A stretch of DNA of 32,515 nucleotides, from NCBI RefSeq assembly GCF_900115495.1, contig NZ_FOWR01000052.1:1-32515 (forward strand), written 5' to 3'. A program made the translations under genes and the position numbers. Below are positions 12,193 to 29,495 of the stretch, piece after piece. The notes beneath the pieces are model-generated. The model did no database searches. It had not been told where the DNA came from and saw nothing but the letters and a program-made list of their open reading frames with translations. This DNA is from Enterovibrio norvegicus DSM 15893. GTDB lineage: Bacteria; Pseudomonadota; Gammaproteobacteria; Enterobacterales; Vibrionaceae. Every line of letters starts with the position of its first letter. The first letter of the stretch is position 1.

Positions 12193-12780
12193 TCAATTAA
12201 TATTGATCTTCAAGCTCTCATCCACTTCCAAGCGCAGGGCGACGGAGCGTTCTTTGCCAACTTTTAGGGATTTTCCATCCCCCATACGGCGCATGTTTAG
12301 GCCGAGTGAACGGAGCATTCTTTCGCAGCCGACGGTAGTAACAAGCACGTAAGCGCGGATGTCGTTTTCTTGGGCGAAATCGTAGAATGAGCGGATGAGT
12401 GTGAGGGCGTTGTTACCGAACCAGCCGTTGGTGTTTTCGTAACTTTCTTTTGACGTCGTGAAGCGCGAGATTTCCCAAATGCCCTCTTCCATTGGCGCTT
12501 CTTCGCCTTGCAGCAATTGGGGGAACACATCTTTCAGCATGTATTCGCCTTGTGTTGGCATGGCACGCCAGCAACCAATCACTTCTTGGTTTTCTTCCGT
12601 CAGTGCGACGTAACTGGTTTGATCCATTTCATCAAAGTTATCTGACTCCATCTCTTGCGTTGAATCGACTTCCCACCCTAGGCGCTCTAGAAAGCTGCGA
12701 TGACGTAGACGGAAGATATTATTTAGAACAGCAGGATTATTGAATTTTGATTCTGGTGTCAGGGTAATTAGCTGGCTCAT
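12193..12780 (-). CDS. luxI: Acyl-homoserine-lactone synthase (LuxI family)
   Basis: A 195-aa enzyme that makes an N-acyl-homoserine lactone from S-adenosylmethionine and an acyl-ACP. All key family residues are present at the expected spacing: Arg26, Phe30 and Trp36 (LRHRSFLERLGW), Asp47 and Asp50 (ESDNFDEMD), Arg72 (IGCWRAM), and Glu103 and Arg106 (EGIWEISRF). The C-terminal acyl-chain region includes AYVLVTTVGCERMLRSLG. The acyl chain cannot be predicted. AAGGAA precedes the ATG at 12780. A lux-box-like palindrome at 12869-12888 lies where a LuxR protein would activate this promoter, giving positive autoregulation. The RibD-like gene diverges from it, and luxR lies beyond that. Confidence 0.95.
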   Translation of the reverse strand: MSQLITLTPESKFNNPAVLNNIFRLRHRSFLERLGWEVDSTQEMESDNFDEMDQTSYVALTEENQEVIGCWRAMPTQGEYMLKDVFPQLLQGEEAPMEEGIWEISRFTTSKESYENTNGWFGNNALTLIRSFYDFAQENDIRAYVLVTTVGCERMLRSLGLNMRRMGDGKSLKVGKERSVALRLEVDESLKININ

Positions 12781-12868: not shown

Positions 12869-12888
12869 AGCTGTCGGAAATTACAGTC
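12869..12888 (-). promoter_or_regulatory. Candidate lux box for luxI
   Basis: AGCTGTCGGAAATTACAGTC is an imperfect palindrome sharing 14 of 20 positions with the box at 17278-17297. Its centre is about 42 bp before a possible start site near 12836, with CATAGC as a weak -10. It lies 89 bp upstream of the luxI ATG. This matches class-II activation by a LuxR protein. Confidence 0.6.
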
Positions 12889-12947: not shown

Positions 12948-12967
12948 ACCTATCACTTGTGACAGGG
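12948..12967 (+). promoter_or_regulatory. Candidate lux box for the RibD-like gene
   Basis: ACCTATCACTTGTGACAGGG has arms CCTATCAC and GTGACAGG that pair at 7 of 8 positions. The outline ACCT...AGG(G/T) resembles the classic lux box. A possible -10 (TATTGT, 12989-12994) lies at the right distance. It would give a start near 13001 and a leader of about 47 nt to TTG 13048. Confidence 0.6.
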
Positions 12968-13047
12968 GATATTTTGCAAGCATTTTTCTATTGTTGAACT
13001 ATGCAAAAACGTGGCGAAACCGCGTTGTGAAAAAGGAAGAAGACACC

Positions 13048-14025
13048 TTGGATAAGCCATACAAAAAGCGCGTATCCGCGCAAAAGATGCCCAGCCGATT
13101 AGAAAAAGAAAAGGCAATGCCAGATGAATTAGTCATGGCATTAAACAAAGCGAAAGCGCTTTCGAGTCGTAATGGCGTTGCTTGGTTGATGTTCGAAAAA
13201 AATCAGCTCATTGCGAGTTATAGTGGCTTTGCGGGTGACCCCATGTTTGCTTCTTTAGAACGATTGGAGCCAGCAACACACAAGCGTCACCTTTATATCT
13301 CTTCCCCACCACATCGCCATTCTTACAAGAGCAGCGAACTGGAAGAAACGGCAGAAAAGTGGGAACTTGATGTGGTTTGCTTCCCTCAACTGTCTAATGC
13401 CATGAACAAAGCATTGGTGGTGGAAGCGCATGAATCGAAAAATTACACACTACACACCCCAGCGTTGAGCCCAAAAAATGAATCGATATTCTTTGGACCT
13501 GCAATGCTTGAGAACCACCAAAGACCTTGGACAACCTGCTTCATCTCAATGAACAGCCAAGGTCAGGGCGTAAAATACGATCATTTTTTATCGGGCTTTG
13601 GTGCAGAAAGTACCTTTCACCATGCGTTGACCAAGCACACCATTGTGGCTATTCAGAAAAGCCTGACCCAATCAGATTCCCAGCTACACGCAATCAAAGA
13701 GAAGTGCTATGCCATCGACATTGAAAATGCAGATGCCCTTGCTCAACTGCAGAGTAAACTCGCCCGAGGCGGACAAAGTTCACTCGTTACCTTGTGCGAC
13801 TATGCGTTCTTCTGCGCACTGGCAGACGCAAACACTGTTGATGAATGTCGAACCTATATGGCCTTAACCGAGTTACCCAACTTCCAGCCCTCACCTATAT
13901 CAATGGGTGAACATACAAATACTGTCCCTAGCCTTTTGGGTTGGAAAGTGACATCTACGCACATTTTTGATGCTGGCGTGCTGATCCAAATACGTCGAGC
14001 AAACCAATATAACCAAACAACGTAA
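13048..14025 (+). CDS. Degenerate RibD-like protein encoded between luxI and luxR
   Basis: A 325-aa protein that appears to align along its length with RibD, the two-domain riboflavin enzyme. LVMALNKAKALSSRNGVAWL matches the start of the deaminase domain. HLYISSPPHRHSYKSSEL sits where RibD has YVTLEPCSHHGRTPPC. RPWTTCFISMNSQGQ matches the reductase start (kLxxSLDGr). SLVTLCDYAFFCALADANTV followed by DECRTYMALTELP matches VEGGP..L...LVDELxxYxAPxLLG. The zinc-binding His and Cys residues and the catalytic Glu are missing, so deaminase activity is not expected. The TTG at 13048 is chosen because AAGGAAG lies 8 bp upstream and the inferred transcript starts near 13001; the frame is open back to 12991. 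The homology comes from reading motifs and needs a profile search. The function, possibly regulatory, is unknown. Confidence 0.6.
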   Translation: MDKPYKKRVSAQKMPSRLEKEKAMPDELVMALNKAKALSSRNGVAWLMFEKNQLIASYSGFAGDPMFASLERLEPATHKRHLYISSPPHRHSYKSSELEETAEKWELDVVCFPQLSNAMNKALVVEAHESKNYTLHTPALSPKNESIFFGPAMLENHQRPWTTCFISMNSQGQGVKYDHFLSGFGAESTFHHALTKHTIVAIQKSLTQSDSQLHAIKEKCYAIDIENADALAQLQSKLARGGQSSLVTLCDYAFFCALADANTVDECRTYMALTELPNFQPSPISMGEHTNTVPSLLGWKVTSTHIFDAGVLIQIRRANQYNQTT

Positions 14026-14500: not shown

Positions 14501-15301
14501 ATGAAGATGTCTAATTCGTTTAACTTAGCTCTTCACGTCAAGGATGAAAACGTCGTTTTTATGGATACCGATCAGCTATATGCCATTATTGAAGAATTAG
14601 ATGGTGTGCAAAACAAAGAACAACTTGAGTCATTATGTGAACAATTCTGCAAGCTCGTTGAAATTCCCTATTATTTATTTGGTGTCATCGAGCAAGAATC
14701 ACTTTATGCCCCTGTCATTCATACGTTTACTAATTACCCCGCACCATGGTTAGAAAAATACTTTCAACAGAATAAACAACGTGTCGATCCTGTGGTGAGT
14801 TACATCATGACGCAGCAAGCACCGATACGTTGGGATTCCCTTGTTCAACGTGAAGAATTTCAAGCGCCTCAGCAACAAGAGCTGATGGCACTCGCCAGCC
14901 AATATGGCCTGTGTAATGGGTTCACCGTACCGATCAAATCTGCATCCGGCGATTTTGTGTTACTCAGCATGGCGATTGGGGATGTAGAAAACCAATGTGA
15001 AAAGCTCAACGCCGCCATCCCTTTTGCCCATACACTCGCTACCCATCTTCTTGAATGCTACCTCACCATGAAGATCAAAAACCAAGGCAGTGAAGAAGTG
15101 TCTCTGACGAAAAGAGAAACCGATTGCTTATTTTGGGCAAGCGAAGGGAAAACCGCGTGGGAAATCTCGAAGATCATTAATGTCTCTGAGCGTACCGTCT
15201 TATTCCATCTTAACAACTGCACCAAAAAACTCGCCGCTTCTAACCGTCAACACGCGGTTGCACTTGCAATAAAAAAAGGGCTGCTCAAACCCAATTTGTA
15301 A
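14501..15301 (+). CDS. luxR: LuxR-family acyl-homoserine-lactone receptor/activator
   Basis: A 266-aa transcription factor. The N-terminal autoinducer-binding domain (about residues 35-185) keeps the family-invariant residues Trp83, Tyr87, Asp96, Pro97, Trp111 and Gly140 (PWLEKYF, RVDPVV, IRWDSL, CNGFTVP). The C-terminal LuxR helix-turn-helix (about 198-262) reads LTKRETDCLFWASEGKTAWE, then SERTVLFHLNNCTKKL. With its signal bound it should activate promoters carrying lux boxes; three candidates occur in this window. No clear ribosome binding site precedes ATG 14501, and MSN two codons later is possible. It is convergent with the decarboxylase gene, with a terminator between them. Confidence 0.95.
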   Translation: MKMSNSFNLALHVKDENVVFMDTDQLYAIIEELDGVQNKEQLESLCEQFCKLVEIPYYLFGVIEQESLYAPVIHTFTNYPAPWLEKYFQQNKQRVDPVVSYIMTQQAPIRWDSLVQREEFQAPQQQELMALASQYGLCNGFTVPIKSASGDFVLLSMAIGDVENQCEKLNAAIPFAHTLATHLLECYLTMKIKNQGSEEVSLTKRETDCLFWASEGKTAWEISKIINVSERTVLFHLNNCTKKLAASNRQHAVALAIKKGLLKPNL

Positions 15302-15397: not shown

Positions 15398-16744
15398 CTA
15401 ACTCACACGTCGCAATGATTCCGATGCCAGTTCCTGCTCAATGTCTGTATATCTTCGTTTCATCTCGTCGATGGAATCTTGCTTACCCACTTGTTTCACC
15501 CCGGCTGGCGTGACCAAATATTCAGCGGGGAACCCGTGCCCAATGAACAACCCGGGGGAGCTAGTGATCGCGTACGCGCCCACTTGATGCACCACTAAGT
15601 AATCGCCAACAGCGAGAGGCTCAGAATCAAACTTATCCGCGATAATGTCAGACGGTGTGCACAGTGGGCCAACGAGGGTGTACCGCTGTGTCTCTGCTTT
15701 TGTTTCTACTTCTGTCTCTAAGCGACTTGCGCCAACCGTCATGCTCGCGCGATCTGGCAGTGCTGCACATGCAATGTCATCCAAGTTCGTGCTTGTCGCC
15801 TTGTCGATGAAATAAGGTTTTCGCATCAAGTTCGCAAACGCCGTTGCACCGTGAAATAGGTTGTAACCTCCATCACATACAACAAAAGTTTTACCGCCTG
15901 ACTGCTTGATGGATTTCACCTGAATCACGGCCTTACCGTGTTCACCCACAATAAAACGACCACTTTCGAAGAATAAGCGTGTCGCCCCTGTTTTCTCTAT
16001 CAAGTTTTGCTGTAAGGACAATAACGCCTCTCGCATCGGCTCGACAGATAGCGCCTTTTCCCCTTTGTAATAAGGAATACCAAAGCCACCGCCCAAGTTA
16101 AGCGCATGCAGCGGCAAGGCAAAACGCGTTTGTAACTCAATCAAGTAATCACACAGTGCTGAGAAGTTAGCAATAAAACTGTCAGGGTCGAGCACCCGTG
16201 TGGTGGCATATATGTGTACGCCAGAAATGGCAATGTTATGAGATGCTGCCAGCGCCAACAGAGACGGTAAATCCTCCTCCGTGATGCCAAATTGCGATGC
16301 CGCACCGCCCATTTTCATTGAGCCGCCAGAGATTTCCACGTTCGGGTTTAAGCGCAGTAAAATCGCCGTGTCCGAATCATAGCGCTGTTTCAGCGCGCCC
16401 AGTTCCACCAATTCATCGGCGCTTTCTACCGCAACAAAAGCAATGTTGTTTCGCGCACATTCCGTTAAAAGTCGCGTGGATTTATACGGGCCAACACAGC
16501 CAATGTTGTTCGGCGCAACGCCGCTTGAAAGTGCCACATCTAGCTCAAAGGCGCTGCTCACATCACAGCCCAACCCTTGGTTCACAATGGTGTCAACAAG
16601 TGACGGATTCGGGTTCGCTTTCAGGGAATACAACACGGTGGCGACATCCGGCAAAGTCACGGCTTTCAAGCGGTCGCATTGCTGCTGGATCCCGGCTTGG
16701 TCATACACATAAAACGGCGTATGAGGCATCGAAGTATTTAACAT
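15398..16744 (-). CDS. Group IV PLP-dependent decarboxylase (DAP/ornithine decarboxylase-like)
   Basis: A 448-aa fold-type III enzyme that removes the carboxyl group of an amino acid, or of an amino acid bound to a carrier (as BtrK does in butirosin synthesis). PLP Lys42 lies in VLYSLKANPNPS, the substrate-side His177 in ISGVHIYA, and the phosphate-binding loop GGGFGIPYY at 218-226. Other marks are E260-S-G-R263, the VVCDGGYN strand, the Cys362/Asp366 pair in VGPLCTPSD, and Tyr391 in QVGAYA. Family members usually have EPGR and a CHIGSQ-type loop; ESGR and HIYATT here mark a divergent branch, so substrate cannot be assigned. The gene follows a small exported-protein gene 29 bp upstream and faces away from the biosynthetic operon. 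Lysine biosynthesis is unlikely from context. Confidence 0.88.
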   Translation of the reverse strand: MLNTSMPHTPFYVYDQAGIQQQCDRLKAVTLPDVATVLYSLKANPNPSLVDTIVNQGLGCDVSSAFELDVALSSGVAPNNIGCVGPYKSTRLLTECARNNIAFVAVESADELVELGALKQRYDSDTAILLRLNPNVEISGGSMKMGGAASQFGITEEDLPSLLALAASHNIAISGVHIYATTRVLDPDSFIANFSALCDYLIELQTRFALPLHALNLGGGFGIPYYKGEKALSVEPMREALLSLQQNLIEKTGATRLFFESGRFIVGEHGKAVIQVKSIKQSGGKTFVVCDGGYNLFHGATAFANLMRKPYFIDKATSTNLDDIACAALPDRASMTVGASRLETEVETKAETQRYTLVGPLCTPSDIIADKFDSEPLAVGDYLVVHQVGAYAITSSPGLFIGHGFPAEYLVTPAGVKQVGKQDSIDEMKRRYTDIEQELASESLRRVS

Positions 16745-16773
16745 CTTGAACGTCCTATTATGGGGGCTTTCCT

Positions 16774-17154
16774 TTAAGGGTTCTTAAACTCAACGTAACT
16801 CAGGCAGCGCTTTGCAGGAGCGTGATGCACCATGTCTACCGATTCCAACTTATCGTTACTGGTGTTGATCGTGATAAGGCTCAGCACGTTATGGCACGCC
16901 TTTTCAGCGCGTAAGCTCATATAGACAAAGTATTCAAGATACTCTTGGTTGCGTTCTTCACGCAGAAATTTGAAGTGGGTGATGTCATCACTTTCCTCAA
17001 ACACCCATGGGCTTCCTGACAGCTCATGGCCGTTCAACATGTCACGCAGTTCCTTTTTGTCGAAACTGGATTTTGCATTCACAAAAGGCACCACCAGCAA
17101 GAGCGCAAGAAGATAGCGTTTTTTCATTCGAGTTTTGAACATAGACCTAAACAT
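16774..17154 (-). CDS. Small exported protein of unknown function
   Basis: A 126-aa protein with a signal peptide: a basic start, then MKKRYLLALLLVVPFVNA, cleaved before KSSFDKKEL. The mature part of about 100 residues has two Cys (KACHNVL and KRCLSYVEF) that could form a disulfide in the periplasm. AAGGAGGAAAT directly precedes ATG 17154, so that start is favoured. It is the first gene of a two-gene minus-strand unit with the decarboxylase and is divergent from the biosynthetic operon, 204 bp apart. I recognise no family. A periplasmic accessory, immunity or binding role is conceivable but not shown. Confidence 0.65.
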   Translation of the reverse strand: MFRSMFKTRMKKRYLLALLLVVPFVNAKSSFDKKELRDMLNGHELSGSPWVFEESDDITHFKFLREERNQEYLEYFVYMSLRAEKACHNVLSLITINTSNDKLESVDMVHHAPAKRCLSYVEFKNP

Positions 17155-17277
17155 ATTTCCTCCTTGGATATGATGAGAATGCGTCGATTCCCAGCGTCGT
17201 ATCTACACAAGCAACCTGAGAAGGTTTGAATTCAGATTGCCTAGGTACACACCATCGCATATCAAAGGAATCGGGCT

Positions 17278-17297
17278 AACTGTCAGAATTGACAGCT
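17278..17297 (+). promoter_or_regulatory. Candidate lux box for the eight-gene biosynthetic operon
   Basis: AACTGTCAGAATTGACAGCT contains the perfect palindrome CTGTCA-GAAT-TGACAG. It is the best of the three related boxes. Its centre (17287.5) is about 43 bp before a start near 17331, given AACAAT at 17320-17325 as -10. The first operon gene starts at 17358. This spacing is the normal one for LuxR-type activation. Confidence 0.72.
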
Positions 17298-17357
17298 GGG
17301 TGAAGAACAAATAACCAACAACAATGTGAGTCATACGTTCGCAAGTGGATAGGCACT

Positions 17358-18374
17358 ATGACCCAATTGAATTACTGGTCGGACACAGCAACCAACAGAG
17401 AGCCTGTAGAAACGACCCTCTCCCATCTCGGCTATGACGCTGGCTATGTCGGCATCATCAAGAAGATATTCCGCATTGCACAAACGCCAGTATCTAAACT
17501 GTCGCCGCAGCAATATTTGATGCAAGACGCCTTTTGTCAGCGAACCGAGCTGCTGGAATCCGACGCACTCACCTACACCCACACAGGGCAGGAAGTGTAT
17601 CCCTTTGGGCAGTCATGCTTGCGCTCGCTAAACCGTTCAAGTCGCGGAAATGGCGCGCTGTTTGGCTCAACCGCCTGCAATTGCGCGTCCACGTTCAAAG
17701 TCATCGACCTGTATCGCCGTCGTCAACAAAGTGCGGATAACAAGGCATCGGCGAGGAAACGCCACGTGATTGTCACCTGCGACACCGGCTTCACGCCAAT
17801 CCTCAAAGACATTCCCGGCTCAACCGTCACAGGCGATGCACGCAGCGCGATTTGCTTGGATGACGGCGCAGCGGGCGACTACCAATTAATCAGTTACGAA
17901 TCGCAGGTTTACCCCGCCCATTTTGGCGGCGCGTGGGAAGACGAAGAAAAGCATTCGGTCTACGAGAAAACCTATAAAGATCGGATTGTTGCGCTGATCG
18001 AACAATCATTAGCAGGGCTAGCGTTGGATGCAGAAAGTCGCATCGCCATCGTGCCCCACAACGTCAATGTGTACACCTGGAAAGCCATCGAGAAGAAACT
18101 CAACAACCCGCAACTTTCCTTCTTCACCGACGGCGTGGCTGACCACGGACACTGCTACGGCAGCGATGCCTTCATCAACCTACAATTGCTCGAACAACGC
18201 TACGCAGAGCAAGACTCAGCAGAACAAGACTGTGCAGAGCAACACGACGCCCCCCATTCGCCACCTCACCCGATACCCGATTACTTCCTGTGTGTAACCG
18301 CGGGTGTGGGTGGCTTTTTTTCAAGCGTGACGCTGAAACGGACCGATACAAATAAGGACCCGTCTTATGACTAA
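17358..18374 (+). CDS. KASIII-like acyltransferase/condensing enzyme 1
   Basis: A 338-aa thiolase-fold protein of the ketoacyl-ACP synthase III type, first gene of the operon. The nucleophile is Cys109 in STACNCASTFKVIDLY (Cys107 lies nearby). The conserved His is His234 in IVPHNVNVYTW. Where FabH has the second catalytic residue in GNTSAAS, this protein has GHCYGSD, putting His265 in the Asn place. FabH-type decarboxylative condensation normally needs Cys-His-Asn. Relatives without that Asn, such as PqsC, use the fold for other acyl transfers. The C-terminal VTAGVGGFFSSVTLK is the usual glycine-rich strand. A Glu/Gln/Asp-rich insert (AEQDSAEQDCAEQHD) near residues 283-300 is unusual. Its end overlaps the next gene by 8 bp. 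Confidence 0.8.
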   Translation: MTQLNYWSDTATNREPVETTLSHLGYDAGYVGIIKKIFRIAQTPVSKLSPQQYLMQDAFCQRTELLESDALTYTHTGQEVYPFGQSCLRSLNRSSRGNGALFGSTACNCASTFKVIDLYRRRQQSADNKASARKRHVIVTCDTGFTPILKDIPGSTVTGDARSAICLDDGAAGDYQLISYESQVYPAHFGGAWEDEEKHSVYEKTYKDRIVALIEQSLAGLALDAESRIAIVPHNVNVYTWKAIEKKLNNPQLSFFTDGVADHGHCYGSDAFINLQLLEQRYAEQDSAEQDCAEQHDAPHSPPHPIPDYFLCVTAGVGGFFSSVTLKRTDTNKDPSYD

Positions 18375-19956
18375 CACTCCCTCGAATGAGCGTGTAATCG
18401 CGCACGACTCAACGCCACAAGGCACATCACTGCAACAAACCATTGTGGCGAACATCAACAAATACGGCGATAAAACCGCGGTGCGGTATCGCAATACGAC
18501 TTACAGCTATCGAGGCTTATTGGTGCTCGCCAGCCAACTCCGTGACATGCTTGCCGCGCACAGTGGCATCCAAAAGAACGTGCCGATTTTGACATGTTCG
18601 CGCTCGCCACTGTTTGCCAACTTATTCAATTTGTTACTCGGGTTAGAAGGCATCCCTTACGAACCCTTGTCGCTCAATGAGCCGTTCGATCGCGCCATTG
18701 CTAAAGCGAGTAAGTGGCAGAACTTCGTTTTGCTGACAGATAGCCAAACCGAGAGCGAGTTGGGCCCAATTTCCGCCCGCGCTAGCCTCACGGTGATTGC
18801 CGACGAAAACTTGTCTTACCGTACCCATTCGCGCCCTGAAAACGCAGGAGAAAATCACCTTTCCCTCGATGAGTGCGTCTACATACTGTCAACGTCAGGC
18901 TCGACGGGCGTGCCAAAGTCTGTCCCGATAAAAAGCCACAATCTCGATGCCTACTTGTCTGCCGCCACGCGCTTTTTCGGCGTCGAACAGGACGAACATT
19001 TCTCCGTGATCCACGATGTCTGTTTCGACTTCAACATCCATGAATTGTATTTACCGATCCACAATCATGGCTGCCTGTGCATTGCGGATAAATCTGACTT
19101 GCTCAGCCCTGCCACCGTCAGCAAATTCGTTGAACGCCACGGCGTTACCTTCTGGTCTTGTGTGCCCTCTTTCATCAACCATTTAGACCACTTACGCAAG
19201 TTCAACAGCAACACCTTCAATCGCATTCGCAAAACCATGATTTGCGGTGAAGCGCTGACGTTAGTGATTCAACAAGCATGGCGCGCCCTCGCCCCAAACA
19301 GCCGCATTTTTAACTTGTATGGCCCGACTGAATGTACCGTTTCCGTTTCAGGGAAAGACATCACCTTCCCACAGCAAGACGACATTCGAAACGGCGTGCT
19401 TACCATTGGCGAAGCCTGGGACAACACCCTGTTCTACGTGCTCAATGAAGGCCACATCAGTCAAGAAGGCCGCGGGGAATTGCTCGTGGGTGGACCACAA
19501 GTCTTTGATGGGTATTTTCGCGAAGGCAGCGTCTGCCGTGAAAAGCTAGTGGAAGAACCGCAAAGCGGCCAATTGCTTTATCGTACTGGCGACAACGTAG
19601 AGCTCTCGCCCAACAAGCCGAATCACTACCTCGGACGCGGCGACGATCAGTTGCAAATTCGCGGACATCGCATCCAAAAGAACGAAATCCTGCACCTGAT
19701 TTGCCAAACCATTCCGTGCTCCAACCTCGCCGTGGTGGAAAAGAATTCCTGTAACGGCACCACCATCGGCATCGTGTTGTTCATCTCAGGGGAAAACCTG
19801 CAGGAAGTTGATATTCGCCGCCGTTTGGCCGCCACACTCCCCAGCTATGCCCTGCCGCTGAAGATCAATATCGGCCCATTGCCGATGAACAAAAACATGA
19901 AGATTGACCACAAAACGCTATATGCAAACGTGAACCCAGAGGCGGAAACCTCATGA
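18367..19956 (+). CDS. Adenylating ligase 1 (stand-alone NRPS A-domain type)
   Basis: A 529-aa ANL-family enzyme that activates a carboxylic acid as its adenylate, with no carrier domain attached. Core motifs are A3 STSGSTGVPKS (about residues 172-186), A4 CFDFNIHEL, A5 NLYGPTEC (about 317-325), A7 LLYRTGDNVEL, A8 GRGDDQLQIRGHRI, and the A10 Lys in MNKNMKIDHKTL (about 512). Read against GrsA, the pocket is Asp-Phe-His-Ser-Met-Cys-Leu-Val-Ser-Lys. The leading Asp suggests an alpha-amino acid, but the code matches none I know. It forms a pair with the KASIII-like gene before it. It overlaps that gene by 8 bp and the next gene by ATGA. Confidence 0.85.
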   Translation: MTNTPSNERVIAHDSTPQGTSLQQTIVANINKYGDKTAVRYRNTTYSYRGLLVLASQLRDMLAAHSGIQKNVPILTCSRSPLFANLFNLLLGLEGIPYEPLSLNEPFDRAIAKASKWQNFVLLTDSQTESELGPISARASLTVIADENLSYRTHSRPENAGENHLSLDECVYILSTSGSTGVPKSVPIKSHNLDAYLSAATRFFGVEQDEHFSVIHDVCFDFNIHELYLPIHNHGCLCIADKSDLLSPATVSKFVERHGVTFWSCVPSFINHLDHLRKFNSNTFNRIRKTMICGEALTLVIQQAWRALAPNSRIFNLYGPTECTVSVSGKDITFPQQDDIRNGVLTIGEAWDNTLFYVLNEGHISQEGRGELLVGGPQVFDGYFREGSVCREKLVEEPQSGQLLYRTGDNVELSPNKPNHYLGRGDDQLQIRGHRIQKNEILHLICQTIPCSNLAVVEKNSCNGTTIGIVLFISGENLQEVDIRRRLAATLPSYALPLKINIGPLPMNKNMKIDHKTLYANVNPEAETS

Positions 19957-20963
19957 GGATCGAAGATAACAACAGCGTAGCCCTGTCGATAGACGCCATT
20001 CGCGTGGTCAGGCCGAAGAAAAAGCTCGTGTTGGTGGATGACTTTGACGCCGTGCATTGCACCTCGTTCAACGCCCACATTCTGAAAAAGATGATGGGCA
20101 TTGAAACCGTCAATTTGCTGCCAGAGGGCGTACCGCACGATGCGTTGATGATGCCGCTGGTGTCTCTTTCAGATGCTCAAACCTACGAAGAGTTCGGCAA
20201 TGATGTGGAGCTCCGCAGCGCCAACACCGGCGCGATGCGGGCACAGTTCGGTCACTCTGTTGACCGTACATTGGCGCGCATTCACAACCTTATGCCGCTT
20301 GGGCTAAGCAACGCCAATCGCTGTGTGTCGCTGTTTAAGCAACTCGACATGATTGCGCGTTCCGCCCCTGCACCGCGTCAGTATTGCATTCACAATACCG
20401 AACTCGCATTCAGTAAAGACATGCGTATCACCCGTGGCTTGTCTGTACAAGGTGACAGCAACACAAGTTTGCGATTGAGCCACACAGACGATCCAAAAAT
20501 TCGGGTGAGTAGCGTGCATTTGCATTACGACCGTCGCTTTGCACGGGGCATTTGGGGCGACAACGTCGAAACCAAAACTTACGAAGAAAATTATCGGCAG
20601 AACATGCATCAGGTGATCCACCGCGCGTTAGACAAAGCGGGCGTCACCCTGTCACAGATAGACCACTTACTCCCACACAATATCAACATCAAATCATGGC
20701 GCTTTCTTTGCCAATCGCTCGACGTGTCTGAATCGCGTTTGTTTTCGCGAAACATACAGACCGAAGGTCACTGCTTTTGCAATGACATGGTGATCAACCT
20801 CAGCGATGCACTTGAAGCATTTGCCCATGAAGACACACCTCCCACCGCAGAAAATCCATTGCGTTTTCTCGCCGTGGCTGCCGGCGCTGGCGGGATGTTC
20901 GGCGCCTGTGTGCTTGATGTCATTCAGTTAGAAGGATTACGCAATGAGAGACACGCTATATAA
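19953..20963 (+). CDS. KASIII-like acyltransferase/condensing enzyme 2
   Basis: A 336-aa paralogue of the product of 17358. The nucleophile is Cys124 (LSNANRCVSLFKQLDM). The general-base His is in LLPHNINIKSW, and the Asn position is again His in EGHCFCNDMVINLSDAL. The N-terminal half diverges, with only weak similarity to canonical FabH. The end shows AVAAGAGGMFGACVLD, the glycine-rich core strand. It could be a catalytic enzyme or, as with PqsB/PqsC, half of a heterodimer with one of the other two. Its start overlaps the previous stop by ATGA, and its end overlaps the next gene by 20 bp, so translation is tightly coupled. Confidence 0.75.
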   Translation: MRIEDNNSVALSIDAIRVVRPKKKLVLVDDFDAVHCTSFNAHILKKMMGIETVNLLPEGVPHDALMMPLVSLSDAQTYEEFGNDVELRSANTGAMRAQFGHSVDRTLARIHNLMPLGLSNANRCVSLFKQLDMIARSAPAPRQYCIHNTELAFSKDMRITRGLSVQGDSNTSLRLSHTDDPKIRVSSVHLHYDRRFARGIWGDNVETKTYEENYRQNMHQVIHRALDKAGVTLSQIDHLLPHNINIKSWRFLCQSLDVSESRLFSRNIQTEGHCFCNDMVINLSDALEAFAHEDTPPTAENPLRFLAVAAGAGGMFGACVLDVIQLEGLRNERHAI

Positions 20964-22491
20964 CGTCATGGTGGAAGCGGCAGACCGTATTGCCGTTCTC
21001 GACCAAGATAAAACCTTCCGTTATCGCGACGTCTTAGACGATGCCGCACACCTGCACGAGCAGCTAAACACGGCGGCGAGAGGCGGACCAACGGGCACGC
21101 ACATTATCATGTCCGCCGAGCGTTCTTACACCAGTGTGGTCATGTACGTGTTCAGCGTGGTGTATGGCTATACCCTTGTTCCCGTGACAGCGGAAATCGA
21201 CAACCGATCGCTAACCCGTTTGATCAACGAACTGCCAGTCGCCTTCTTCTTTACTGACACACTGACGGATAAGGGCACGTCGCGTTTACTCGCTGTTGCA
21301 CAACAAGCCTCTTGCCCAACATTGGTCGCTGAACGAGGCAAACCTTTGAGCGATGGGGCGTTCCATCAGCCACTGCCACCATTGAATAACAGCCGCGAAT
21401 GGTTAGCAGCACCCAGCCAAGACAACCCTGATCTGTATTTGATTTTCACCTCAGGCAGCACAGGTAACCCAAAAGGCGTGAGTGTGGAAACCCACAACCT
21501 GCTTAATTACCTAGAGGCCACACGGGACGAGTTCGGTGTTCATGCTGACGATGTGCTGAGCCACATTTCCCCGCTCAGCTTTGATTTCAGCATTCACGAG
21601 ATCTTCATTGCGCTGTTCAATCAAGCGGCCATTGCCGTGCTGCGTGAAAACGACAAATTCAACTTCTCAGGTTATCTCACCCGCCATGCAGTGAGCGTGT
21701 GGGCATCGGTGCCTTCTACCGTGGCGTATTTGAACAAAACCCGTCAATTGAACCCGAACCAATACCCTGCGCTGCGATTGGCGTTTGTTGGCGGCGAACC
21801 CGTGCAACCTTCGCTGCTGCACACGCTCACGCAAGCAGCCCCCAACTGCACCGTGTATAGCTATTACGGCCCAACCGAATGCACCGTCGCCATGATGGCG
21901 TGTTTGTACGACCCCACCAAAGAATACGCCCAGCACATGCCCCTTGGCAGACCGTTCGGCGGGCACCGTTTGTTAATCCAAACCGAAGCCGACGGCAAGT
22001 TTCATGCCACAGGTACAGGCGAAGCCTACATTGCCGGACCACAAGTATTGAAAGCCTATTGGAATAACCCTGAACAAACCGCGCTGCGTTTTTCTTATCA
22101 CCCTGAACACGGCTACATGTTCCGCACGGGCGACATCATCCGCATCGAGGAAGACGGTAACCATGTGTTTATCGCACGCCAAGATGACGACATTAAAATC
22201 GGCGGATATCGCTTTAACACTGCCGCCTGTCGAACCTTTGTGGAAGAACAAACCAATGCAGAAGATGTGGTGGTCACGCCCTTTTCTCACAGCAACGAAG
22301 GCACGTTCGATCGCCTTTTAGTGGTCACCGTAAACGCCGAGATCAGCGAAGCCGCGTTAGCCCGCATCTTCCGCGACCAATACGATAACTATGTGCAGCC
22401 GCACTTCGTCAACGTTTCGGAACTGCCGATGAACCGAAACGGCAAACTCGACAAGAAAGCCTTGATGGAAAAGGTGGCCTGCCATGTTTAA
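20944..22491 (+). CDS. Adenylating ligase 2 (stand-alone NRPS A-domain type)
   Basis: A 515-aa ANL-family ligase, second of the operon. Motifs are A3 FTSGSTGNPKG (about residues 168-180), A4 LSFDFSIHEIF, A5 YYGPTECTVAM (about 307-317), A7 MFRTGDIIRI, A8 RQDDDIKIGGYRFN, and the A10 Lys in MNRNGKLDKKAL (about 502). The pocket read against GrsA is Asp-Phe-His-Ser-Phe-Gly-Tyr-Val-Ala-Lys. Its first four residues equal those of ligase 1, so the two probably accept related amino acids. No phosphopantetheine site follows, so the acyl acceptor must be CoA, a carrier encoded elsewhere, or the KASIII-like Cys itself. It overlaps the next gene by 8 bp. Confidence 0.85.
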   Translation: MRDTLYNVMVEAADRIAVLDQDKTFRYRDVLDDAAHLHEQLNTAARGGPTGTHIIMSAERSYTSVVMYVFSVVYGYTLVPVTAEIDNRSLTRLINELPVAFFFTDTLTDKGTSRLLAVAQQASCPTLVAERGKPLSDGAFHQPLPPLNNSREWLAAPSQDNPDLYLIFTSGSTGNPKGVSVETHNLLNYLEATRDEFGVHADDVLSHISPLSFDFSIHEIFIALFNQAAIAVLRENDKFNFSGYLTRHAVSVWASVPSTVAYLNKTRQLNPNQYPALRLAFVGGEPVQPSLLHTLTQAAPNCTVYSYYGPTECTVAMMACLYDPTKEYAQHMPLGRPFGGHRLLIQTEADGKFHATGTGEAYIAGPQVLKAYWNNPEQTALRFSYHPEHGYMFRTGDIIRIEEDGNHVFIARQDDDIKIGGYRFNTAACRTFVEEQTNAEDVVVTPFSHSNEGTFDRLLVVTVNAEISEAALARIFRDQYDNYVQPHFVNVSELPMNRNGKLDKKALMEKVACHV

Positions 22492-23494
22492 CGATTACCC
22501 ACATTTAATGTCCCTAATCAAAACACAGCCGCCCACACAAGAGGTGTCACTCACCAATATCAAAGAGGCGTCGGTATACGAAGAAGCTCTGCGACTTTTA
22601 GAAAAGCAGTCACTGAGCAAACGACAACGCATCGTCGTGTTTAACCGCTTGGTTCCCATAGAAGGGAAACCCACCAATGTCGCAATATGGGCACCTAAAC
22701 ATGCTGTCGAAGAAGGTTCTGATCCATTCAAACCCACCAAGCCCATGCGCTATTACCTTACACATAAAGGGGAAGCGATAAGAGCACGCAGTATTCAGGC
22801 AAAGTCCGATGTTCAGGTAACCAAGTTTTGCCTACTACTTCCCGGCTTTAACGGCGGGCCGTTCGATCAGTTTCACCTTGCTGAAGCGCTCGCCAAAAAA
22901 GGCTATTGGGTCATATCCGTGGGCTGTTACATCAATCCGGAACTCAAGCCGAGTGATGATCCGGACAAAATCGCTCTCGCCCTTGAAGACGCTTACGCCA
23001 CATACCCAGCGATATTACAAACCTTCACCGAACTTACCGGGCTCGCTCTCTCTGCCGAGACCTTAAGTGAAGTACGTTATGTCTCGTTCTCTGCTGGCAT
23101 TTACCCTTTATTGCGTGCCATCAGAAAAGGCCATTGTCCGAAGTGGCAACACCGTGTGTTACTCATGGCGCCGGGGTTATCCGCCACCCCAGGGCAGGCG
23201 AAATTGCTGACACAAGCACCCGTATCCCGTATGGACCTGATTCATTCAGAACAGGACACACACCCCACCTTTGGCGACCCCCTGCATTACTTAACCTTTT
23301 TTGATGCATCACGCACCCAACTTCACTTGCTGCCGAAAGGTGAACACTACGATTTCATTCATCTTCCGTTGTCCGTCACCAAAGACGCGAACACCACGCC
23401 CACGGGCGGATTCACCCAATCTCAACACGAGCACGCGGTAAAGCAGGAATGCTTGGCGGTTCTCGACAGTCTGATTCATGGAGAAACACGATGA
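22484..23494 (+). CDS. Cytoplasmic alpha/beta-hydrolase-fold protein
   Basis: A 336-aa protein with an N-terminal extension of about 110 residues and then an alpha/beta-hydrolase core. The oxyanion loop is CLLLPGFNGGPFDQFH. The nucleophile elbow is VSFSAGIYPLLRA, a variant of G-x-S-x-G with Ser before Ala-Gly. The likely acid is in MDLIHSEQDTHPTFGDP and the His in PKGEHYDFIHLP. No signal peptide is seen. It may release, cyclise or proofread thioester intermediates, in the manner of a type II thioesterase; this is inferred from the cluster. Its stop and the next start share ATGA at 23491-23494. I do not recognise the subfamily. Confidence 0.7.
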   Translation: MFNDYPHLMSLIKTQPPTQEVSLTNIKEASVYEEALRLLEKQSLSKRQRIVVFNRLVPIEGKPTNVAIWAPKHAVEEGSDPFKPTKPMRYYLTHKGEAIRARSIQAKSDVQVTKFCLLLPGFNGGPFDQFHLAEALAKKGYWVISVGCYINPELKPSDDPDKIALALEDAYATYPAILQTFTELTGLALSAETLSEVRYVSFSAGIYPLLRAIRKGHCPKWQHRVLLMAPGLSATPGQAKLLTQAPVSRMDLIHSEQDTHPTFGDPLHYLTFFDASRTQLHLLPKGEHYDFIHLPLSVTKDANTTPTGGFTQSQHEHAVKQECLAVLDSLIHGETR

Positions 23495-24459
23495 GCTCAA
23501 CAACCACGCAAGTCCCAAATAGCCGAGATGCTCACACCATCATGACCAACATCAATGACGTGTACACCACCCCAACGCCCTACACCGCGTTTGATGATTG
23601 GGCCAGCTTCAGCCCTGCCTATGGCGACAACATTTTGTCTGACCCACAAAGCGCGATTGATCTCGCGAATGACTTGGTCGCGCACTACACCAATTCTGAG
23701 TTTCACAAAATGGCACCAGAGCGCGCGGACGATCTCGAACTGCGCTCTGTCAGAGATATCATCGCCCGTTACCACACGCTGAACACAGATCCAGCAGCCT
23801 CCATCACACCAGTGGGTGGACGTTGCCGCGACCTTGCATTACTGGTGTGCAGCCAGTTTCGCGCCCAAGGTGTGCCTGCTCGTCTTCGCTTTGGCTTCAC
23901 CCACATGTATTACGACACCAAACGCGCGCTGGCCGACCACGTGGTGGTGGAATACTTCGACGAAGGGCGCTGGAAAATCCTTGAGCCACGCGGCAGTTCG
24001 CGTTTGATGGCACATCAAGATCTGGGCATTAACCCCATCGACGTCGACCCGAAAAAATTCATCAATGGACCGCGTGCGTGGCACAACATCCGCAACAAAA
24101 ACATGCGTGCAGAATGGTTCAGCGGCACCACGCCCAATGCACAAATGGGCTTGTGGTACGTCAGAAAAATCATGCTGTTTGATTTGGCGAGCCTGTGCCG
24201 ATACGAAGCCGATGTGTTCGATTTGTGGGGCTATTTGACCGATTCAAAACCCGGCGTGATGCCGAAGTTCAAACCCCATTTAGACGCGCTCGACAACATC
24301 GCCGCGACAGATTTTCTGGATGAGCAAGCCTTCGCCGAATGCTATCAACTGCTGGTCCAAGACGAGCGCTTTTTACCAGACGGGGAAATCAGCGTGTCGC
24401 CCACCCTTGGCAAACGCTCAACCCTGTCAGTAAGGAAGGAAGACTATGTTCTATATTAG
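23491..24459 (+). CDS. Transglutaminase-like cysteine enzyme
   Basis: A 322-aa protein of the transglutaminase-like superfamily. The core reads GGRCRDLALLVCSQFRAQGV, with Cys112 the nucleophile, followed by PARLRFGFTHMYY. ADHVVVEYFDEGRWKILEPR supplies His150, with Glu165 where the third residue is commonly Asp. In andrimid synthesis a transglutaminase homologue (AdmF) makes an amide bond between thioester-bound substrates, so an amide-forming step is a reasonable guess here. ATG 23491 is chosen over an upstream in-frame start because it shares ATGA with the previous stop and has GGAG before it. The end overlaps the next gene by 14 bp. The substrate is unknown. Confidence 0.72.
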   Translation: MSSTTTQVPNSRDAHTIMTNINDVYTTPTPYTAFDDWASFSPAYGDNILSDPQSAIDLANDLVAHYTNSEFHKMAPERADDLELRSVRDIIARYHTLNTDPAASITPVGGRCRDLALLVCSQFRAQGVPARLRFGFTHMYYDTKRALADHVVVEYFDEGRWKILEPRGSSRLMAHQDLGINPIDVDPKKFINGPRAWHNIRNKNMRAEWFSGTTPNAQMGLWYVRKIMLFDLASLCRYEADVFDLWGYLTDSKPGVMPKFKPHLDALDNIAATDFLDEQAFAECYQLLVQDERFLPDGEISVSPTLGKRSTLSVRKEDYVLY

Positions 24460-25432
24460 TCGCAACATCACGGCTGACGCGCCGCGGGTGCTGAACGTGT
24501 TGGACGACCACGATGCGCTGTTCCTGAGCGCATCCTCCGCCAAAGTGTTTAGCCAATGGTATGGGTTCAAAGAATTGCCCTACTACGACCACACGCCCTG
24601 CACCGAGTATTACCAGCAGGCATTGCAAACCTACGTGGAATCGGATGATGCGAAGGACAGCGGCACGCCCAAATCTCTCGCTGACACTTACGATGCCGTC
24701 GTACACAACCATACCGGCGCGTTATGCGGCGTGTTCGGCGAGCGTGTGATGCTGCGAAGCAGCCGCGCCACACTCAATAACGACGACCCAAAAGACAGCA
24801 ATTGGCTGCCCTTCTCCTCGTCTGCCGCCAAGTGCGCCACGCCCATGCAGCTGATGAAATACTTCGAACGCAACCGCGCCCTCAACAACATCTTGTTGGT
24901 CACGGGTGACATTGCAGACAACGTGGACATGCGCGTTAATCCCGTTGCTTTGAGTTCAGACACCATCAACATGGTGAAACTCAGCCGCACCCCGAGCGAT
25001 ATCTCCGTATTGTCCGTCGCGACCTTGTTCGACGGCCAATTCTCCGGCGGGATTTACCTTGAATCTAATGACGGCATTCAAGAGAAGTACAACGCGTTCT
25101 ACCAAATCAACGTCGAGAAAGTGGTCGACCGCTGTTTGAAAGAGGCCAACCTCACCCGAGAAGACATTGACGTGGTGCTGCCACACAACGTCAACGCACA
25201 AACATGGAAGAAATTGGCTGCAAAATTAGGCATTTCTATTGATAAGGTTTACACCAAAAACATCGCCCGATATGGTCACTGCTTCGGCGGTGATCTGTTC
25301 GTTAATCTCAATGATTTGTACAACGAATTAGATAGCCCACGAACCGTCACCTGCTTAGCCGTTGCGGCAGGTATTGGTGCCTCTTTTGGTGCCACACTCT
25401 TCGGCATATCTAAAGGAAAGGAAACTGAATGA
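24446..25432 (+). CDS. KASIII-like acyltransferase/condensing enzyme 3
   Basis: A 328-aa third KASIII-like paralogue. The nucleophile is Cys130 (SSSAAKCATPMQLMKYF). The base is the His in VVLPHNVNAQTWKKL, and the former Asn position is His in RYGHCFGGDLFVNLNDL. The end has AVAAGIGASFGATLFG. All three paralogues therefore keep Cys and His and share a G-H-C-F/Y-x-x-D segment, which argues for one specialised clade with altered chemistry rather than fatty-acid initiation. It follows the transglutaminase-like gene rather than a ligase. It overlaps the last gene by ATGA. Confidence 0.78.
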   Translation: MFYISRNITADAPRVLNVLDDHDALFLSASSAKVFSQWYGFKELPYYDHTPCTEYYQQALQTYVESDDAKDSGTPKSLADTYDAVVHNHTGALCGVFGERVMLRSSRATLNNDDPKDSNWLPFSSSAAKCATPMQLMKYFERNRALNNILLVTGDIADNVDMRVNPVALSSDTINMVKLSRTPSDISVLSVATLFDGQFSGGIYLESNDGIQEKYNAFYQINVEKVVDRCLKEANLTREDIDVVLPHNVNAQTWKKLAAKLGISIDKVYTKNIARYGHCFGGDLFVNLNDLYNELDSPRTVTCLAVAAGIGASFGATLFGISKGKETE

Positions 25433-26433
25433 GAGGTCGATTGAAGAAAATGAGTATTTTTCTGATTTCCACTATCGTCGTGCTCGGCGTTATCGTGTTG
25501 GCAGTTTTTCTGCTGCAACGCCCGCCCGTCGATCCCGCGCTAGAGAAAGGCCTAGAGGTCTCTAAATTCACCGTGGAAGATGCAACAGGCCAAACCGAAC
25601 TTACCGCCCAAGTGTGGCAACTTCCCCCTGAGAACGCAGAGCCGCCAAAAGGCGTGATCTTAATGTCTCACGGGTTTTCTGCCACCGCAGGCACATTGCG
25701 TGTTTATGCCGCCCAATTGGCGCGCGCTGGTTATGTGGTCGCCGCCGTCACCCATGACGATCTCAAAGGTTTGCGCAGCGGCCTGGTAGAAAACGACCCC
25801 ATGGTCGCAAGGCAGCGCCACTTGCAGCTATTGCTCGAACAGCTTTACGCGAGCGATGAACAAAACACCCTGCGCACGCTACCTGTTGGCATCTTGGGTT
25901 ACTCCCTCGGTGGTTATGCCGCGCTCACCAGCACCGCATTCCCGCCAGTGCTAGACAAGCAACCTGCGTTTTGTGAAACCCAGCCACGCGGCGAAAACAT
26001 CTTGTTGTGTAACCCGCGCTTTAGGCAACGCATTCAAGCGATTTTGTCTCAAGAACCCAACGCGGCAGCACGAAGCCAAACACCCGCGATTCCCGCATCG
26101 GCCATTGCGTTGTTTGCCCCAGCTTACACGCAGCTCGTTGACATGGCAGACCAAGAAAACACCCCTGCCGTGTTTCTTGCCAACGGTCAGTTTGATGAAT
26201 ACGTGAGCCCAACGGACATGCAATCCCTCGCGCAATCGCACAGCTACATTAAAGCACACAAGGAACTGGAAGATGCCGGCCACTATGTGTACCTGCCTTC
26301 ATGCCCTTGGCCGCTCTCCCTCTTTATGGAGAACTGCAAAGACCCAAAACCGATAGAACGCGCACCCAAGCAAACTGCGTTAGCGAACGAATTGGTGGCG
26401 TTTTTTGATGAGAACTTGGTGGGGGCGAATTAG
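25429..26433 (+). CDS. Membrane-anchored periplasmic alpha/beta hydrolase
   Basis: A 334-aa protein with an N-terminal signal anchor (about residues 8-29, SIFLISTIVVLGVIVLAVFL) that should place the hydrolase domain in the periplasm. The core shows GVILMSHGFSATAGTLRVYA (oxyanion region), GYVVAAVTHDD, the nucleophile elbow LGYSLGGYAAL, the acid region LANGQFDEYVSP, and the catalytic His in EDAGHYVYLP. It resembles the PAF-acetylhydrolase and dienelactone-hydrolase-like group. Four Cys in the domain may pair outside the cytoplasm. As last gene of the operon and its only exported enzyme, it may remove a masking group from the exported product or degrade it. That role is inferred. Confidence 0.75.
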   Translation: MRGRLKKMSIFLISTIVVLGVIVLAVFLLQRPPVDPALEKGLEVSKFTVEDATGQTELTAQVWQLPPENAEPPKGVILMSHGFSATAGTLRVYAAQLARAGYVVAAVTHDDLKGLRSGLVENDPMVARQRHLQLLLEQLYASDEQNTLRTLPVGILGYSLGGYAALTSTAFPPVLDKQPAFCETQPRGENILLCNPRFRQRIQAILSQEPNAAARSQTPAIPASAIALFAPAYTQLVDMADQENTPAVFLANGQFDEYVSPTDMQSLAQSHSYIKAHKELEDAGHYVYLPSCPWPLSLFMENCKDPKPIERAPKQTALANELVAFFDENLVGAN

Positions 26434-28320: not shown

Positions 28321-28331
28321 ATTCCCACCCT

Positions 28332-29288: not shown

Positions 29289-29436
29289 TTACCTTTCCTT
29301 GATTCTGTTTAAAGGCGCGAGCACCAGCAACCGATGTTCCTGCATAAGTGATTTTGGCAATGTCATTCCACTATTTAGAGTCTAGAGCGTGACAAAACGA
29401 AAACAATCAGGATTTCTCGCTAACACACTTTAGAAA

Positions 29437-29458
29437 ATCTTAACTATTATGGTGAGAT
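29437..29458. promoter_or_regulatory. Candidate LysR-type operator
   Basis: ATCTTAAC and GGTGAGAT, separated by TATTAT, form an imperfect inverted repeat (6 of 8). It lies in the divergent region, about 40 bp before the LysR start. The position and size fit an autoregulatory LysR site. Confidence 0.4.
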
Positions 29459-29495
29459 AAAAGGAAACTATTCACGAAGGTCAAGGCAAACAACG

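Follow-up and report, generated by a model that had tools for sequence, protein, structure and literature searches.

The described chemistry that comes nearest to the system analysed here appears to be that of vicenistatin, for which PMC11284099 describes how VinN loads 3-methylaspartate onto the stand-alone carrier VinL, how VinO decarboxylates the carrier-bound amino acid and how VinM then couples a further amino acid directly to the amine on the carrier. Our subject is a gene cluster of Enterovibrio norvegicus DSM 15893, found in a stretch of 32,515 nucleotides (hereafter the window) which takes up the whole of contig C61 (1-32515) in a genome of 5.45 Mb and 99 contigs. The window contains the first of the two blocks of a cluster that is probably switched on by N-acyl-homoserine lactone (AHL) through the adjacent LuxR. 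We are confident, short of certainty, that the whole is a cluster of about 17 biosynthetic and export genes in two blocks, whose AHL-controlled pathway would build an amino-acid-derived product on a carrier and export it.

As in vicenistatin biosynthesis, the cluster combines a stand-alone adenylating enzyme, a stand-alone acyl carrier protein (ACP), a pyridoxal phosphate (PLP) decarboxylase and a second adenylating enzyme, the counterpart of which forms an amide in vicenistatin. In contrast to vicenistatin, neither a modular polyketide synthase nor a VinK-like acyltransferase was seen among the Pfam-scanned proteins of our cluster, and the cluster differs further in its four proteins of the ketoacyl-ACP synthase (KAS) fold, its transglutaminase, its acyl-coenzyme A (CoA) dehydrogenase (ACAD) and its AHL control. 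The butirosin proteins BtrI, BtrJ and BtrK are similar in that a BtrK-like decarboxylase is found with a ligase and an ACP in one cluster; the butirosin pathway is not known to have a KAS or a transglutaminase and uses different partners. In NCBIfam, the third ligase and the decarboxylase are best matched by TIGR03098 and TIGR03099, respectively, both models of exosortase-A-associated systems, but the proteins of the window's genome score below both cut-offs and no exosortase context was seen. A transglutaminase fold that makes amide bonds in an assembly line is known from AdmF of andrimid biosynthesis, a likeness drawn here at the level of the fold. Unlike in a nonribosomal peptide synthetase (NRPS), each adenylation-domain (A-domain) enzyme and the carrier come as proteins of their own, and no condensation domain was found in the scanned cluster proteins. 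More distant loci, described below, share a GHxFG-type KAS and, mostly, the BtrK-like decarboxylase, ACP, ACAD and ligases. To our knowledge, no single known pathway covers the chemistry proposed here. The first-pass annotation, made from the letters of the window, knew of no characterised cluster of this composition, and this stands: no description was found in the open literature searched, the available parts of PMC12141560 and PMC10204066 do not describe the cluster, and subscription literature could hold a description.

Five genomes carry the cluster, namely that of the window, E. baiacu A649, E. norvegicus FF-33, Grimontia indica AK16 and G. celer CECT 9029, and Vibrio ruber DSM 16370 is a more distant relative with both halves. 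All frames of the nine genes that had been noted in the window were found, encoding three KASIII-like enzymes, two A-domain ligases, a transglutaminase, two hydrolases and the PLP decarboxylase, and their tight organisation was borne out, with all seven junctions between 17358 and 26433 overlapping by 4-20 bp. These overlaps assume that the transglutaminase starts at 23491, which was taken as its start because the database protein (P0015) has 322 amino acids (aa). The eight operon genes (17358-26433) all lie on the plus strand, and the genes of the decarboxylase and of a 126-aa protein are divergent, as listed below.

15398..16744, minus strand, BtrK-like fold-III PLP decarboxylase with Orn/DAP domains (PF02784 and PF00278)
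16774..17154, minus strand, 126-aa protein with an apparent signal sequence (by eye), 71-89% identity in four relatives
17358..18374, plus strand, KAS A, KASIII-like, Cys-His-His, from alignment with other KAS
18367..19956, plus strand, ligase B, stand-alone A-domain enzyme (PF00501, AMP-binding)
19953..20963, plus strand, KAS C, KASIII-like, Cys-His-His (PF08541, ACP_syn_III_C)
20944..22491, plus strand, ligase D, stand-alone A-domain enzyme (PF00501)
22484..23494, plus strand, hydrolase F, alpha/beta-hydrolase, from PF03403 in its V. ruber counterpart and the kept Ser and His
23491..24459, plus strand, G, transglutaminase-like, 322 aa (PF01841, Transglut_core); the frame opens at 23449
24446..25432, plus strand, KAS H, KASIII-like, Cys-His-His (PF08541)
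25429..26433, plus strand, hydrolase I, alpha/beta-hydrolase with an N-terminal hydrophobic segment (PF03403, 20.5 bits, cut-off 20)

The 126-aa protein gave no Pfam match. KAS A and hydrolase F likewise have no Pfam match of their own and were therefore assigned through relatives; the V. ruber counterpart of hydrolase F, paired by position and alignment, matches PF03403 (PAF-AH_p_II) at 23.9 bits against a cut-off of 20. Hydrolase I, which is present in Enterovibrio and Grimontia and has no tblastn match in the V. ruber stretches, is probably membrane-anchored, as judged by eye. Promoter and terminator scans of the operon ends yielded nothing.

A PF00550 search of the window's contig found no phosphopantetheine carrier, so the earlier statement that the cluster has no carrier holds for the window. 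It does not hold for the system. In all four relatives a PF00550 carrier (frames of 93-102 aa) follows the operon on the same strand at a distance of 0.2 to 10.5 kb, and the orthologous carrier of the window's genome is on contig C23; the carrier had seemed missing because its gene sits on another contig of the same genome. This stand-alone ACP has a DS motif, the Ser of which is kept in 6/6 aligned sequences. Its gene and seven more, on C23 and beyond the operon in the relatives, form the second block, in the order carrier, KAS4 (296 aa), U (210 aa), ACAD-like protein, MATE transporter, third ligase, HlyD-like adaptor and RND transporter. Among the options offered by the first-pass annotation (CoA, a carrier encoded elsewhere or direct loading on the KAS Cys), the second was thus the right one, this carrier being the first gene of the cluster's second half. 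The carrier starts 214 bp past hydrolase I in both Grimontia, on the same strand, and the gap is 1.7 kb in E. norvegicus FF-33 and about 10.5 kb in E. baiacu; in Grimontia and V. ruber, the carrier gene is found in the same run as the operon, so that one refuting outcome named by the first-pass annotation, a carrier gene within the operon, does occur in relatives. On E. baiacu, the match to the window's right end stops at L021:4896 and that to the end of C23 begins at L021:7525 in the expected opposite orientation, so that C61 and C23 map about 2.6 kb apart on E. baiacu, with about 1.7 kb at the C23 end unmatched. Adjacency of the two blocks in the window's own genome is therefore likely on this synteny. 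In E. norvegicus FF-33, a 332-aa protein that by eye resembles a TIR-like nucleotide-binding defence protein (L025:3358-4356) is encoded between the operon and the carrier block, a region which seems to be a gene insertion site.

Co-inheritance of the two blocks was followed in 61 genomes, including 18 of the genus. KAS H of the first block matches 44 of these at an expect value (E) <= 0.001, and the match is strong (E < 1e-150, with two more KAS each) in five; the other 39 matches (E 2.5e-7 or weaker) we read as ordinary KASIII enzymes. KAS4 of the second block was found in exactly the same five genomes and in none of the 56 others, and all five fall within the 18 of the genus. The genes thus do co-occur in other genomes, contrary to another refuting outcome named by the first-pass annotation, and both blocks are inherited together. 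The cluster proteins of the window's genome are 73-100% identical to those of E. baiacu. When KAS4 of V. ruber was used as the query among 394 genomes of the order, evenly drawn from a larger group, only the window's genome was found, which indicates that the cluster is rare. Used alone, the transglutaminase matches 27 of the 329 genomes of the family, five of which are the cluster genomes and one V. ruber; it was rejected as a cluster marker because none of the regions read in 7 of the other 21 genomes (L047-L053) gave a KAS or decarboxylase match, and ligase matches were found in only one of them, L051.

In V. ruber, both halves lie in a single same-strand run some 20 kb long, in the order ACP-KAS4-U-ACAD-MATE-lig3-RNDa-RNDb-A-B-C-D-F-G-H-106aa-DC. 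Fourteen of the 16 genes shared with Enterovibrio match by tblastn at roughly 22-47% identity, and F and U, for which there was no tblastn match, were paired through their position and alignment. The V. ruber order recurs in four Photorhabdus and in Xenorhabdus mauleonii, at about 39-71% identity to V. ruber and without the C-D pair, X. mauleonii retaining an 82-aa frame that resembles KAS C. One Photorhabdus stretch (L059) starts inside KAS4, which leaves the carrier outside the fetched stretch. The dehydrogenase of Photorhabdus luminescens DSM 3368 (L056:1810-2888) and the MATE gene of P. akhurstii DSM 15138 (L059:2323-4293) each read as two frames, and some Photorhabdus copies may be decaying or contain sequence errors.

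The position beside luxI and luxR noted by the first-pass annotation was corroborated, as both LuxI and LuxR were identified by Pfam. The features of this part of the cluster are as follows.

12193..12780, minus strand, LuxI-type AHL synthase, 195 aa (PF00765, E 2.8e-30)
12871..12886, unstranded, lux-box-like site CTGTCGGAAATTACAG (CTG-N10-CAG), 90 bp from the luxI start
12950..12965, minus strand, second box-like site CTGTCACAAGTGATAG, one mismatch, 25 bp before the U344 start
12991..14025, plus strand, U344, 344-aa protein between luxI and luxR, in 5/5 cluster genomes
14501..15301, plus strand, LuxR-type AHL receptor/regulator, 266 aa (PF03472 and PF00196), 78-94% identity in four relatives
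17280..17295, unstranded, lux-box-like palindrome CTGTCAGAATTGACAG, 62 bp before the operon, in 5/5 genomes
C23:60058-60073, carrier-block box of the window's genome

LuxR boxes usually have the form CTG-N10-CAG. A box of this form precedes the operon and is conserved across the relatives, as expected of a LuxI/LuxR-controlled operon; in the intergenic alignment, the palindrome reads CTGTCAGAA(T/C)TGACAG in 5/5 genomes. The aligned box on the luxI side, CTGTCGGAAATTACAG, is kept in 5/5 genomes at 12 to 16 of 16 positions, and the site CTGTCACAAGTGATAG is found at 12/16 positions or more in the three Enterovibrio and is absent from the two Grimontia. With one mismatch allowed, the consensus gave three sites in the window against 0.16 expected, and three were reached in 0/100 shuffles, chance figures which are flattering as the consensus was built from the same sites. 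The genome-wide count of strict sites is the fairer test. Where the carrier block is detached, as it is in three genomes, the strict palindrome CTGTCA-N4-TGACAG lies some 200 bp ahead of the carrier; in the two Grimontia, whose carrier directly follows the operon, it was not found at this place. Strict sites (CTGTCANNNNTGACAG) number five in the whole 5.45-Mb genome, against a hand estimate of 0.3 by chance, and two of the five are at the two blocks. As a control, the backwards pattern gave no site in the window's genome and one among ten genomes (in G015). Four congeners without the cluster have 1-3 strict sites elsewhere, so not every strict site marks the cluster. The LuxI orthologue has at least 76% identity in the four other cluster genomes. 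U344 has no Pfam match, and of its seven database matches the five that are named are all Enterovibrio or Grimontia. Taken together, the box before the transcription units and the strict co-inheritance strengthen the proposal, already made from the window's letters, of an amino-acid-derived small-molecule pathway tied to AHL.

A LuxI orthologue with 77% identity (C3:35548-36123) is encoded by G006, a congener with an 87% complete genome that yielded no cluster, and the signal system may thus also occur without this pathway.

Catalytic positions of the carrier, dehydrogenase, decarboxylase, transglutaminase and hydrolases were assigned by eye on the basis of family knowledge. Three residues are invariant (17/17) in a set of 17 KAS that covers the window, Grimontia, V. 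ruber, Photorhabdus, Xenorhabdus and database matches, namely the Cys, a first His in PHN and a second His in GHC motifs. Alignment with FabH places this second His at the Asn of FabH, an Asn to His change present in all 17, so the cluster KAS do not have the Cys-His-Asn active site of FabH. In a second set of 17 KAS, taken from the window and nine further loci and inspected by eye, the Cys and the second His are kept in 17/17 and the first His in 15/17. KAS C and KAS H score 26.1 and 40.5 bits with the fabH model TIGR00747 (cut-off 292.1), and KAS A does not match it; membership of the KASIII fold is indicated by PF08541, which is over its cut-off in C, H and all three V. ruber KAS tested. 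KAS4 has Ser where the active Cys would be in 10/10 sequences, with a Cys four residues earlier. Its profile matches KAS weakly (probability 93.6), and its structural model has the thiolase/KASIII fold with a mean predicted local distance difference test score (pLDDT) of 85.5, a predicted template modelling score (pTM) of 0.86, and a Foldseek probability of 1.00 at a template modelling score of about 0.6. From its residues and model, KAS4 looks like a non-catalytic partner, in a role that resembles that of PqsB beside PqsC. Whether A/B and C/D arose by a tandem duplication was considered and is not claimed, as the trees leave the Enterovibrio and V. ruber copies unresolved and carry a long-branch warning.

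The best PDB match of the decarboxylase is BtrK (E 1.9e-51), the PDB entry of which describes a decarboxylase of glutamate bound to the BtrI carrier. Against TIGR03099 (cut-off 478.45) the window's enzyme scores 301.7 bits, which is below the cut-off, and those of V. ruber (587.6) and Burkholderia (558.6) pass; the Lys and Cys are kept in 5/5 aligned sequences. Ligase B scores 225.5 bits with TIGR01733 (cut-off 317.4), and its nearest PDB chains are NRPS A domains. Ligases B and D have FDF..H after the A4 aspartate (by eye, in GrsA numbering); we know of no matching published A-domain code, and no substrate is predicted. The third ligase scores 238.4 bits with TIGR03098, its top NCBIfam model, against a cut-off of 592.35 (V. 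ruber, 368.0). The Cys and His of the transglutaminase are kept in 7/7 sequences with Glu at the third position, the Glu of the dehydrogenase in 4/4, the SAG serine and HY histidine of hydrolase F in 5/5, and the Ser and His of hydrolase I in 3/3. Most of the 50 listed Foldseek matches of the U model are ACADs, with a best E of 0.01 and 0/440 reaching 0.001.

Beyond these relatives, genome contigs were scanned with the pattern GHCFG[AGS]Dx[FYM], which gave 77 loci that are hence selected by their KAS motif. A BtrK-like decarboxylase was matched in 70 (and not in the stretches of the other 7), an ACP in 66, a dehydrogenase in 59, a ligase in 57, a MATE-like protein in 32, a KAS4-like protein in 20, a transglutaminase in 12 and an F-like hydrolase in 10, and decarboxylase, ACP, dehydrogenase and KAS occur together in 51; these counts are phmmer matches at E 1e-4 within fetched stretches, several of which are ended by contig ends, and no control set of ordinary FabH loci stands behind them. 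The enzyme core of GHxFG KAS, BtrK-like decarboxylase, ACP, dehydrogenase and ligase recurs in Pseudomonadota, Actinomycetota and Bacillota. Transglutaminase matches were found in only 2 of 67 more distant loci. Eight loci are on plasmid records, from Rahnella, Agrobacterium vitis, Rhizobium, Tritonibacter, Gemmobacter, Streptomyces, Paenibacillus and Burkholderia cenocepacia. The annotation lists one or two carriers for seven of these eight, which speaks against a logic without carriers, and the remaining one is the unannotated Burkholderia record; a cytochrome P450 is annotated in five. Among the distant core loci, a LuxI match was found only in Burkholderia, and a LuxR match there and in A. 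vitis.

If the enzymes act as their families and nearest relatives suggest, the third ligase would activate an amino acid and load it onto the carrier, and the BtrK-like enzyme would decarboxylate the carrier-bound amino acid to an omega-amino thioester resembling gamma-aminobutyric acid or beta-alanine, which the dehydrogenase would then oxidise. The KAS-ligase pairs A-B and C-D would each add one activated aminoacyl unit, with the KAS Cys as acyl acceptor, and would in this way stand in for NRPS modules. KAS H and the transglutaminase could form the last amide bond or release the chain, the hydrolases could edit, release or unmask it, and the product would leave the cell by the MATE and RND pumps. 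There are two KAS-ligase pairs in Enterovibrio and Vibrio ruber and one in Photorhabdus and Xenorhabdus, and these one-pair and two-pair variants make the role of a pair directly testable. A broader proposal is that pairs of a GHxFG KAS (Cys-His-His) and a stand-alone A-domain ligase are a general replacement of the NRPS condensation domain, in the form of addable modules and in at least three phyla, with the KAS Cys taking the aminoacyl-adenylate and passing the aminoacyl group to a carrier-bound amine; we regard this generalisation as rather unlikely.

It is a serious possibility, though one we would not bet on, that in the same cluster the KAS, instead of transferring aminoacyl groups, make C-C bonds by decarboxylative or Claisen chemistry and that B and D form amides in the manner of VinM, so that the product would be an amino-acid/polyketide hybrid. 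Cys-His-His is also the site of the C-C-forming KAS I and II, and B and D are A-domain enzymes without a carrier of their own, a situation for which VinM offers a model since it adds an amino acid directly to a carrier-bound amine according to PMC11284099. However, no malonyl-loading acyltransferase or ketoreductase was found among 18 Pfam-scanned cluster and neighbour proteins (several of them matchless), and four KAS-fold proteins beside three ligases fit acyl transfer equally. A modification system for the cell surface or exopolysaccharide, of the exosortase-A type, would account for the top NCBIfam models of the third ligase and the decarboxylase; we think it improbable given the scores below both cut-offs in the window's genome, the lack of a glycosyltransferase or exosortase among the Pfam-scanned cluster proteins, and the MATE and RND exporters, which point to a small diffusible product. 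A carrier-free pathway, in which CoA thioesters serve instead or the KAS Cys is loaded directly, and to which the carrier-less operon and contig would lend themselves, was rejected and is very improbable: the cluster has a dedicated carrier block that shows synteny and co-inheritance and has the same box in front of it, and the closest relative of the decarboxylase acts on carrier-bound substrates. That the cluster is a decaying, functionless remnant in this strain is hardly credible. Other genes do separate the blocks in Enterovibrio and 2/4 Photorhabdus copies have split genes, but the examined frames of both blocks are open with their catalytic residues kept in the window's genome, protein identity to E. 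baiacu is 73-100%, and the carrier block has its own box.

Several results weigh against our reading of a carrier-tethered, AHL-controlled cluster. The two blocks of the window's genome sit on separate contigs, and their adjacency is taken from the relatives. AHL control is not general, since neither LuxI nor LuxR had a match in the stretches fetched from V. ruber, Photorhabdus and Xenorhabdus. No ACP was matched in the stretches of 11/77 related loci, and the Burkholderia cenocepacia locus has no carrier match within 24.7 kb, which also favours the carrier-free pathway. In the KAS tree, A, C and H of Enterovibrio do not pair one-to-one with the V. ruber KAS, which leaves the notion that a pair adds one unit without phylogenetic backing. 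A comparison of U with the ACAD profile by hhalign was null, and the fold model of U is poor (pLDDT 64.6, pTM 0.42); together with the weak Foldseek matches this makes a second ACAD subunit no more than a lead for U, and it is not claimed. Moreover, what was observed is gene content, conservation, co-inheritance, the shared box and catalytic residues, and the chemical steps, the substrates and the product are all deduced from these. The cluster thus stands as rare, conserved, linked to quorum sensing and new in its composition, with a core in at least three phyla. If our reading is correct, marine Vibrionaceae and insect-pathogenic Photorhabdus and Xenorhabdus share the pathway of an exported metabolite, under quorum control in Enterovibrio and Grimontia, and one solved product would open many uncharacterised clusters with the same core.

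Among the more distant loci, the Burkholderia cenocepacia plasmid (L013:9127-21258) has KAS copies, a ligase, a TIGR03099 decarboxylase and dehydrogenase-like genes beside its own LuxR and LuxI, and presumably resembles the cenocepacia island. Three ligases, two dehydrogenases and 2-3 KAS matches characterise a Rahnella-like cluster common to Pseudomonas, Dickeya, Lonsdalea, Prodigiosinella and one Vibrio (L073, L083, L092, L093, L095, L096, L098, L101, L102, L106, L108, L111, L130 and L131). No named product was found for the Rahnella/Pseudomonas/Dickeya/Lonsdalea, A. vitis, Tritonibacter, Burkholderia or actinomycete loci. Lentzea aerocolonigenes (L074) and Micromonospora sp. ATCC 39149 (L079) have the only actinomycete loci of the 77 with both the core and a transglutaminase.

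Elsewhere in the window, near the left contig end (2343-5047), there are a relative of IS200-like transposases (19.0 bits against a Pfam cut-off of 23) and an FRG-domain protein. At 27373-30416 there is a divergent group of genes, for a LysR regulator, a PALP-type PLP enzyme and a protein like ornithine cyclodeaminase, which we take to be reminiscent of eutC/eutB of ectoine breakdown.

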